Below are positions 52,068 to 55,907 of a stretch of 64,000 nt of DNA, one piece after another. The first letter of the stretch is position 1; every line of letters starts with the position of its first letter. A program made the translations under genes and the position numbers. Source of the stretch: Guyparkeria hydrothermalis (GTDB lineage: Bacteria; Pseudomonadota; Gammaproteobacteria; Halothiobacillales; Halothiobacillaceae); the NCBI RefSeq assembly GCF_023555385.1, contig NZ_JAJSED010000001.1:1833501-1897500 (forward strand). The letters are read 5' to 3'. The notes under the pieces were generated by a model. It was given only the letters and a program-made list of their open reading frames with translations. It searched no databases and had not been told where the DNA came from.

Positions 52068-52886
52068 ATGAACACGCAAGCAAACGCGGCGGTCGACCTG
52101 CATTTCGAGGAGCGCGGCGGCGGGCTGCCGGTGATCATCATGCACGGCATGTTCGGCTCGCTCTCGAACTGGCGCGGTATCGCCCAGTCGTTGAGCGAGA
52201 ATTACCGGGTGATCAACGTCGACCTGCGCAACCACGGTCGCTCCCCGCATGCGCCGGGCCTTGATTACGAGGCGATGAGCAATGACATCCTCGCCCTGAT
52301 GGATCGACTCGGCATCGAGCGTGCCCACCTGATCGGCCACTCGCTCGGTGGCAAGCTCGGCATGGTGCTTGCCGACCGCCATCCCGAGCGCGTCGCGCGA
52401 CTGGCGGTGGTCGACATCGCGCCGAAGTGGTATCCGCCCTGGCACCAGGACGTCTTCGAGGCGCTCGACGCGGTCGACCTGTCGACGCTCGAGTCGCGCG
52501 AGCAGGCGCGCCAGCAGATGGCGGCGCACGTGTTCGAGCCGGAGGTGCGCGCCTTCCTTGCTGCCAACCTCGAGCAGGTCGACGGGCAGTGGCGCTGGCG
52601 ATTCAACCTGCCGGAGCTGAAGGCCGCCTACGAGCAGACTTCGGACATGCCGGCCCTCTCGGGTTTCTATCTCGGCCCGACTCTGTTCATCCGCGGGGCG
52701 CAGTCGGCCTACATCGAGGCGGCCGACGAGCCGCAGATCGGACGCGATTTCCCGCAGAGCTGCATCGCCACGTTGGAGCGGGCGCGCCACTGGCCGCACA
52801 TCGAAGATACCGACGGCTTCCTCGACGCCGTGACCCGGTTCTTCGCCACCGGCTGCGAGGGGTTCCCTGCGCCGCGCGGTGCCTGA
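52068..52886 (+). CDS. YbfF-type alpha/beta-hydrolase esterase
   Basis: The 272-residue alpha/beta hydrolase shows the oxyanion segment IIMHGMFGSLSNWRG, the family motif NVDLRNHGRSPH, the nucleophile GHSLGGKLGM and a late catalytic His in ARHWPHIED. It resembles YbfF, which hydrolyses acyl-CoA and short esters; the true substrate is unsettled. AAGGGA lies ahead of the ATG at 52068. Its stop is ten bases before the palindrome of the downstream RNA locus. Confidence 0.88.
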   Translation: MNTQANAAVDLHFEERGGGLPVIIMHGMFGSLSNWRGIAQSLSENYRVINVDLRNHGRSPHAPGLDYEAMSNDILALMDRLGIERAHLIGHSLGGKLGMVLADRHPERVARLAVVDIAPKWYPPWHQDVFEALDAVDLSTLESREQARQQMAAHVFEPEVRAFLAANLEQVDGQWRWRFNLPELKAAYEQTSDMPALSGFYLGPTLFIRGAQSAYIEAADEPQIGRDFPQSCIATLERARHWPHIEDTDGFLDAVTRFFATGCEGFPAPRGA

Positions 52887-52896
52887 CCGTCCGATT

Positions 52897-52914
52897 TGTA
52901 GGAAAATTCCTACA
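52897..52914 (+). promoter_or_regulatory. GacA/UvrY-type upstream activating palindrome
   Basis: TGTAGGAAAATTCCTACA is a perfect 18-base palindrome of the form TGTARG-N6-CYTACA. Known GacA/UvrY/VarA sites upstream of csrB and rsmY/rsmZ genes follow TGTAAG-N6-CTTACA. A half-copy TTCCTACG sits at 52929-52936. It lies roughly 60-80 bases before the first GGA hairpin. I do not see a convincing -10/-35 pair after it, which is common for activator-dependent Csr RNA promoters. Confidence 0.7.
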
Positions 52915-52974
52915 CGACAAATCGAATATTCCTACGAAACTTTCGGCGATTTCGTCTACCCAGCCGCCGCCCGC

Positions 52975-53193
52975 CGGCGCATCATGTGTCCCGTGCTCGG
53001 ATGCACATCGGGCAGGAAGCCCACCTGGCCAGGATGGCCGACGGATCGTGACGGCGGACAGGAGGTCCGCGCAGGAAGCACCGGCAGAGGATCTGCCAGT
53101 ACGGGTTGCCGGGTTCGCCCGGCGCGCGCCAGGCGCTTGATTAAGGATGCGCACCGTAAACAACCGGCACTCGGGATAGAGTCCGGGTTTTTT
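52975..53193 (+). ncRNA. CsrB/RsmZ-like CsrA-sequestering RNA, proximal segment
   Basis: Between about 52990 and 53193 I can draw successive small hairpins with GGA in the loop: GTGC-TCGGAT-GCAC (52993-53006), GGGC-AGGAA-GCCC (53010-53022), GGCC-AGGAT-GGCC (53027-53039), CGA-CGGA-TCG (53039-53048), GCGGAC-AGGAG-GTCCGC (53054-53070), GGCAG-AGGAT-CTGCC (53083-53097), GCGC..AAGGAT..GCGC (53133-53152) and the terminator loop with GGGA. A stable UUCG-capped stem (53108-53123) is interspersed. The stems differ while AGGA loops repeat, as expected for an RNA that titrates the translational regulator CsrA/RsmA. The 5' end is a guess. No plausible protein is encoded. Confidence 0.72.
53164..53193 (+). 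terminator. Intrinsic terminator of the proximal Csr-type RNA
   Basis: CCGG and ACTC (53164-53172) pair with GAGT and CCGG (53179-53186) around GGGATA, with one bulged C, followed by G and six T (53188-53193). The loop itself holds a GGA motif. A transcript starting near 52975 would be about 220 nt. Confidence 0.75.
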
Positions 53194-53336
53194 GCGGGCA
53201 GCCAGGAGGCCACGGCGCGTTCGGCAAGGATGCCGGGCCCGACACGGATTGCCGAGCGTCCAGGATGGATGCTGCCAGGGATGGCACGGAACGATTCCGC
53301 GCGGGACGCGCGACCAGATGCAGGATCGCATCGCCG

Positions 53337-53358
53337 AAAAAAGCGGTGGTAGCCACCG
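53337..53358 (-). terminator. Minus-strand intrinsic terminator inside the RNA locus
   Basis: On the minus strand CGGTGG pairs with CCACCG around a 3-base loop and is followed by GC and six T (A6 at 53337-53342 on the plus strand). No minus-strand gene ends here, so it may end an antisense transcript entering from the queA side, or insulate the locus. Confidence 0.45.
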
Positions 53359-53534
53359 GCAACAACAAGTAACCGCAGGAACGGTCACCGGCGAGACAAG
53401 AAGAACAGGACCGGCAACGGATTTGCCCTTTGTCTTACGGATAAGCACTCGCCACACCGGACCCAGGGACTGGGACCCAAGATTACGCGCAGGGAAACCG
53501 CGCGAGATCCCGCGTCACGGCAGGATCGCTTCTC

Positions 53535-53559
53535 GGCCAGGACGGCCCTCCTCCTTTTT
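53535..53559 (+). terminator. Possible 3' end of the distal GGA array
   Basis: The last hairpin GGCC-AGGAC-GGCC is followed by CTCCTCC and five T (53555-53559). The stem is short for a terminator, but it marks the point where the GGA pattern stops, about 125 bases before queA. Confidence 0.4.
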
Positions 53560-53685
53560 CAGCAATGCTGTTCGCAAGTCACCCCCTGATCATCAGGCCG
53601 GGTGTTCTTTGCGTGTCTGCTCGTCGCCGTCCCGGCCGGGCTGGCGGTGGCCTGTCCCGGCGTGGCGGGGTAGACTGCGCCGGCC

Positions 53686-55907
<2,222 letters not shown>

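Follow-up and report, generated by a model that had tools for sequence, protein, structure and literature searches.

A GGA-rich locus between an esterase gene and queA in Guyparkeria hydrothermalis very probably encodes a CsrA-sequestering RNA of the CsrB/RsmZ kind

Introduction

Between an esterase gene and queA in the genome of Guyparkeria hydrothermalis lies a stretch that is dense in GGA triplets. Does it encode a protein, does it form a long leader of queA, or is it the gene for an RNA that antagonizes CsrA? According to PMC2375449, a palindromic potential GacA site lies upstream of RsmX, RsmY, and RsmZ of Pseudomonas, and these RNAs sequester RsmA proteins by means of their GGA motifs. 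The window analysed here is a stretch of 64,000 nucleotides, which corresponds to positions 1833501-1897500 of a single-contig genome of 2,392,942 bases; all coordinates below are those of the window unless a contig is named.

Overall, it appears that the gap between the esterase gene and queA is very probably the gene for a large non-coding RNA, folded as a row of hairpins, which would sequester CsrA. The explanation held with high confidence is a GacA-activated, CsrA-sequestering, trans-acting sRNA of the CsrB/RsmZ kind, approximately 640 nt in length. An RNA of this kind would supply a likely antagonist of CsrA for the Halothiobacillaceae, a family of sulfur-oxidising bacteria. An earlier note on this DNA knew of no description of such an RNA in this kind of organism, and none is found among the literature matches listed for Halothiobacillus and CsrA, for Guyparkeria, and for CsrB/RsmZ-type RNAs, in searches that cover few subscription papers.

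Density of GGA and hairpin loops

On the plus strand, positions 52975-53560 (586 bases) contain exactly 29 GGA, 14 of which are AGGA, and the minus strand contains eight; the direct count agrees with the approximately 29 in about 570 bases given in the earlier note. The mean is 7.7 GGA per 586-base plus-strand tile in the window and 8.8 in a genome sample of 360 kb (34,956 overlapping tiles, both strands; maximum 27), and the count at the locus is higher than that of every tested tile without overlap with it. From 300 dinucleotide shuffles of 52968-53611, 16.4 GGA are expected, with a maximum of 26. The excess is therefore about 1.8-fold relative to dinucleotide content, 3.3-fold relative to the sampled genome tiles, and 3.8-fold relative to the window tiles, so that the "roughly threefold" excess reported earlier holds against the genome tiles and is too high against the dinucleotide shuffles.

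Under a strict definition, a GGA was counted as lying in a loop when the minimum free energy fold, with a pairing span of up to 70, placed it in a hairpin loop no longer than 9 nt on a stem with three or more pairs. Thirteen of the 29 GGA lie in hairpin loops by this count. The comparison with dinucleotide-shuffled sequence that had been proposed beforehand gave 1.3 GGA in loops on average and a maximum of 6 (n = 300), which the locus far exceeds; with the GGA fixed and the rest shuffled (n = 300), the values were 2.25 and 7. A looser local count (stem of at least four pairs) places 16 of the 29 in loops against 8.5 in shuffles. This test is weaker when taken alone, because the maximum of 17 in 2000 shuffles exceeds the observed 16, and since the loose count is only moderately above the shuffles, the conclusions rest on the folded counts. 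The 18-20 loop GGA of the earlier note are somewhat high by either count. Folding was applied to 518 of 2846 tiles from the window and the sampled genome, namely those having 12 or more GGA; the two tiles overlapping the locus came first with nine loop GGA each, and the next tile had six. Together with 15 hairpins that recur in relatives (see below), the strict count indicates that the hairpin loops carry many more GGA than chance would give.

A protein-coding or merely compositional GGA-rich stretch with no RNA function was considered, as three open frames overlap the locus, two on the plus strand (157 and 165 codons) and one on the minus (256 codons), and GGA-rich coding tiles exist elsewhere in the genome. 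However, the tile with the maximum of 27 GGA, which lies inside an open frame of 2201 codons, has just two of them in loops, and the locus differs from each of nine aligned relatives by 5-16 indels not divisible by three, while its hairpins recur in these relatives. The coding explanation was rejected on the basis of the frame-breaking indels in all nine comparisons and the scarcity of loop GGA in the coding tile. The stretch therefore appears non-coding, and it is extremely improbable that it has no function as an RNA.

Features of the locus

The earlier note had placed the RNA between an esterase gene and queA, and both neighbours are borne out by Pfam and NCBIfam matches (Table 1). Its coordinates, 52975-53560, hold for the GGA array and are too narrow for the full extent of the locus, since the promoter elements begin at 52897 and the likeliest terminator ends near 53610, both outside that interval. 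Three points are additions to the earlier account: a GacA-type site, a terminator-like hairpin inside the array, and the likelier 3' end near 53610.

Table 1. Features in and around the esterase-queA gap, in window coordinates.
Feature	Position	Strand	Basis
Alpha/beta-hydrolase (esterase), upstream neighbour	52068..52886	+	Pfam Abhydrolase_1, E 4.4e-32; best NCBIfam PRK10673 esterase, 196.9 bits, below cut-off 399
GacA/UvrY-type 18-bp palindrome, TGTAGG-N6-CCTACA	52897..52914	.	Pattern scan of genome; identical in 10/10 aligned loci of genus
Conserved promoter element AATCGAATATTCCTACG, 3' of palindrome	52920..52936	+	Ten-sequence alignment A1
Putative -10 hexamer TACCCA, 42-nt gap after palindrome	52957..52962	+	Hexamers at 21 loci
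Probable CsrA-sequestering RNA gene, full-length form, ~640 nt, 29 GGA, both ends predicted	52969..53610	+	Loop statistics, orthologous loci, frame-breaking indels
5' module, five GGA-loop hairpins: 52993-53006, 53010-53022, 53026-53040, 53054-53070, 53083-53097	52993..53097	+	GGA in consensus loop columns, 10/10 loci each
Internal terminator-like hairpin, T6 tract, loop GGGATA with GGA	53164..53193	+	Terminator scan
Middle module, six GGA-loop hairpins: 53201-53210, 53219-53238, 53255-53273, 53274-53285, 53298-53312, 53317-53332	53201..53332	+	Consensus loop columns
3' module, GGA-loop hairpins 53373-53384, 53462-53474, 53535-53547, more GGA between	53373..53547	+	Consensus fold
Most likely 3' terminator, CACCC..GGGTG stem-loop then TTCTTT	53580..53610	+	Conserved inner stem
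queA, downstream neighbour	53686..54765	+	NF001140, 467.8 bits, cut-off 324

Conservation in the Halothiobacillaceae

The distribution counts cover 27 genomes of the family. In nine further genomes of the window's genus, a DNA search revealed near full-length relatives of the locus; in four genomes of a second genus it gave short matches at the promoter end. queA was found in 26 of the 27, and in 21 it is preceded by the palindrome, or by a variant with another first base, together with a dense array of GGA: all ten genomes of the window's genus (the Guyparkeria clade, window genome included), all ten of the second, the single genome of the third, and none of the five of the fourth, in which the search for the array covered the region before queA and matches to the promoter pattern. 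Left out of the 21 are G005 (64% complete), in which no queA was found, and the second or partial queA hits G017b, G025b, and G026b; in G026, counted with this caveat among the five genomes of the fourth genus, queA is split over contigs. A QueA search of wider contigs gave 80 loci, of which eight are from close relatives and the rest are distant (at most 53% identity), and a megablast search of the locus against plasmids gave no match.

The position of the array directly upstream of queA, on the same strand, in 21 genomes would also be expected if the region were a long cis-acting leader through whose GGA hairpins CsrA controls queA. However, a terminator-like structure stands between the array and queA in the window, the palindrome lies anywhere between 629 and 968 nt from the queA match, and the five genomes of the fourth genus keep queA without the array there. 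The number of GGA is, in our judgement, also far above what a leader would need. A queA leader is therefore very improbable, and the trans-acting RNA remains the preferred reading.

The number of GGA in loops is higher than in all 60 shuffles at 20 of the 21 loci; at G013 it does not exceed them, and at G012 and G021 it exceeds the shuffle maximum by one only. The ends of the 21 arrays follow from a rule, by which an array was taken over at most 700 nt and closed where a gap above 100 nt came after some ten GGA; their lengths are approximate. RNAalifold on the ten-sequence alignment A1 predicted 15 hairpins that have a GGA in the loop and three or more pairs in the stem. The GGA is present in the loop columns of all ten loci for 14 of these hairpins and of eight loci for the other, 53298-53312, in which it is absent from G009 and G006. 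No triplet with eight or more occurrences is as well conserved as GGA, of which 23 of the 29 are kept in all ten sequences, against 34% over all triplets.

Pairing is seen in 96.5% of the 716 cells that make up the 15 hairpins and the terminator's inner stem. The least regular of the five stems in the 5' module is 53054-53070, 86.7% paired, the other four ranging from 95.8 to 100%, and stem 53373-53384 of the 3' module is likewise 86.7% paired. Two-sided changes occur at seven of the 74 pairs (shuffled mean 2.8; slid versions 1). Hairpin 53255-53273 and the terminator account for three each and hairpin 53054-53070 for one. As many conserved pairs are the same in every sequence, the covariation is carried by these seven. 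The count of further pair types in A1 is not above that of shuffles, as 116 of 500 shuffles reach it. The earlier note had named the loss of loops and stems in relatives as an outcome that would speak against its proposal; instead, both persist, with covariation limited to seven of the 74 pairs.

Three further observations concern the arrays themselves. The segment 53149-53167, GCGCACCGTAAACAACCGG, is invariant in the ten loci but for one position; it is mostly paired in the consensus fold yet has no GGA, and its conservation therefore needs another reason. By eye, a hairpin of the same form as in the 3' module closes the array in loci of the second genus. In the orthologue of G011, from the second genus, several near-identical copies of a GGA unit are seen by eye to stand head to tail, which suggests that this array may have grown by tandem duplication.

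Relationship to known RNAs

The earlier note had pointed to the Rfam models CsrB, CsrC, RsmY, and PrrB/RsmZ. No Rfam model passes its gathering threshold on the window sequence, and this includes CsrB (RF00018), CsrC (RF00084), RsmY (RF00195), and PrrB_RsmZ (RF00166). At relaxed thresholds, CsrB matches 53258-53332 with 15.6 bits (E 0.052; cut-off 71) and RsmY matches 53001-53114 with 16.2 bits (E 0.18; cut-off 57), two lower-scoring matches of the same clan being left out here. When 15 orthologous loci were searched in the same way, none was above a gathering score, although two matches are significant: CsrC in G013 with 34.6 bits (E 8.8e-7; cut-off 61) and CsrB in G018 with 34.3 bits (E 7.8e-6; cut-off 71). 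Two further loci have weak CsrB matches (E 0.26 and 0.84). It appears, therefore, that the locus probably works like the members of the CsrB clan and is remotely related to them, while standing outside every Rfam family threshold, and that the Rfam models at their thresholds miss this RNA, both in the window and at the 15 orthologous loci.

RsmX, RsmY, and RsmZ are roughly 100-130 nt long. The locus resembles these Pseudomonas RNAs in its upstream palindrome and GGA motifs, and its 5' module weakly matches the RsmY model; in contrast, the RNA predicted here is much longer, a palindrome search of the genome finds one such locus, and the score is below the model threshold. With CsrB and CsrC of E. 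coli it shares many loop GGA, a UvrY-type palindrome upstream, and a CsrA gene in the genome, and two orthologues match their models. It differs from CsrB of E. coli in having 29 GGA in a predicted 640 nt, whereas 22 GGA are given for CsrB in PMC7652899. The palindrome would be centred at about -63 here and is centred at -183/-182 at csrB of E. coli in PMC4682653. The locus also adjoins queA, has an internal terminator-like hairpin, and scores below the Rfam thresholds, unlike the E. coli RNAs.

Promoter and partner proteins

The perfect 18-bp palindrome upstream of the GGA array, TGTAGGAAAATTCCTACA, is the sole match without mismatch to TGTARGN6CYTACA in the 2.39 Mb genome. With at most one mismatch, the pattern occurs at eight places including 52897-52914, and a control pattern also occurs at eight. 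UvrY footprints span an 18-nt palindrome with the consensus TGTAAGN6CTTACA, as described in PMC4682653. TGTAGGAAAATTCCTACA is thus a GacA/UvrY-type palindrome upstream of the predicted promoter, and binding of GacA to it is predicted from the sequence. The composite of the palindrome and AATCGAATATTCCTACG at fixed spacing, with at most one mismatch, is found at the locus in 21 of the 27 family genomes, compared with four control hits in the 27. After a gap of 42 nt from the palindrome, a hexamer beginning with T is present at all 21 loci and one beginning with TA at 16 of them. The hexamer at 52957-52962 may therefore be the -10 element, with the transcript starting near 52969; since a scan of the locus with the sigma-70 consensus gave no promoter, this assignment is one that we infer.

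The genome has one CsrA gene, whose product of 65 aa (90.2 bits) carries Leu4 and Arg44, residues that PMC7652899 marks in the legend of a figure. It also has a GacA homologue, a response regulator of 214 aa with UvrY/SirA/GacA as best NCBIfam match (188.9 bits, below the equivalog cut-off of 280), so that both partners of such an RNA are present, the second as a homologue below that cut-off. GacA homologues with at least 55% identity are found in 22 of the 27 family genomes, the best match in the other five being 36%. The array is present in 21 of these 22, the exception being the incomplete G005, and in none of the five without a close homologue. CsrA is found in 23 of the 27, including all five that have neither GacA nor the array. 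The search for it gave no hit in G005 or in three genomes with the array, G008, G018, and G020, where assembly gaps are a possible cause. The five genomes without GacA belong to one genus, so that their lack of both GacA and the array may go back to a single event. In PMC4682653, BarA-UvrY orthologues are proposed to drive CsrA-antagonist RNAs throughout the Gammaproteobacteria. The co-distribution with GacA in the 27 genomes, including the joint absence in a genus that keeps CsrA, fits this proposal and provides a new clade in which to test it.

The sensor kinase is less clear. The BarA sensor-domain family PF09984 has no match in the genome. One candidate for GacS/BarA, a protein of 756 aa (G000:C1:1146681-1148951), has REC and Hpt domains and BarA as best match (100 bits, cut-off 890), and its gene adjoins what reads from the sequence as a cysteine-synthase-like gene. 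This candidate, the sole one examined, has no Pfam match to HisKA or HATPase, and its kinase part may therefore be highly diverged or lost.

The proposed mechanism can potentially be described as follows. Phosphorylated GacA (UvrY) would bind the palindrome and activate transcription from about position 52969. The RNA would fold into a row of approximately 15 hairpins with a GGA in each loop, more GGA lying outside clear hairpins. Each GGA loop may bind one RNA-binding face of a CsrA dimer, and one RNA could therefore remove many CsrA dimers from target mRNAs, by which the effects of CsrA on those mRNAs would be reversed. The reading as a CsrB/RsmZ-type RNA, with which the earlier note began, fits the GGA-loop array, the palindrome, the conservation in three genera, the distribution shared with GacA, and the CsrA gene of the genome. 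As that note proposed, such an RNA would link the Csr system to the c-di-GMP genes and the AlgZR pair of the window.

Putative terminators and possible forms of the RNA

The main 3' end is most likely the stem-loop 53580-53610. Its inner stem, which has the three pairs with two-sided changes, is paired in 91.1% of cells, and its folding energies in the ten loci range from -9.1 to -14.2; the T tract is not clean in G008, G009, and G006, and a simple terminator scan did not list this stem-loop. The scan did detect the internal hairpin 53164-53193, whose loop GGA is present throughout the ten aligned loci and whose T6 is intact in nine of them.

It is tentatively possible that the locus yields more than one product, either as two RNAs or as forms of different length, with part of the transcripts ending at the internal hairpin (approximately 225 nt, 10 GGA) and the rest reading through (approximately 640 nt, 29 GGA). 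This would refine the main explanation and does not contradict it. The conserved loop GGA and T tract of the internal hairpin, together with its detection by the scan, are consistent with a short form. Against it, the internal stem is modest (-6.4 to -12.8 kcal/mol) and has bulges, no clear equivalent is seen by eye in loci of the second genus, and no second palindrome without mismatch precedes the downstream part. The T tract could be an RNase E or Hfq site instead. Because the loop of the internal terminator is a conserved CsrA-type GGA site, CsrA might set the length of the RNA: its occupancy on the nascent RNA could choose between the 225-nt form with 10 GGA and the 640-nt form with 29. 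Such a sponge of two lengths is rather unlikely; if true, it would amount to a built-in feedback on sponge capacity.

A second palindrome promoter

A second promoter with a GacA-type palindrome, and with a similar -10-like hexamer at the same gap of 42 nt, was observed upstream of a comEA-like gene of approximately 92 aa in five genomes of the genus; the window's genome has a degraded form (G000:C1:1576594-1576611). The family matches of the gene were determined on the copy in G002, and a match to the palindrome pattern in G003 was judged to be something other than this promoter. The leader of the gene has AGGAGG and a GGA beside the start codon. Since the palindrome promoter and the GGA by the start codon occur together, both GacA and CsrA might act on the comEA-like gene, which would then be a possible direct target of GacA other than the sRNA.
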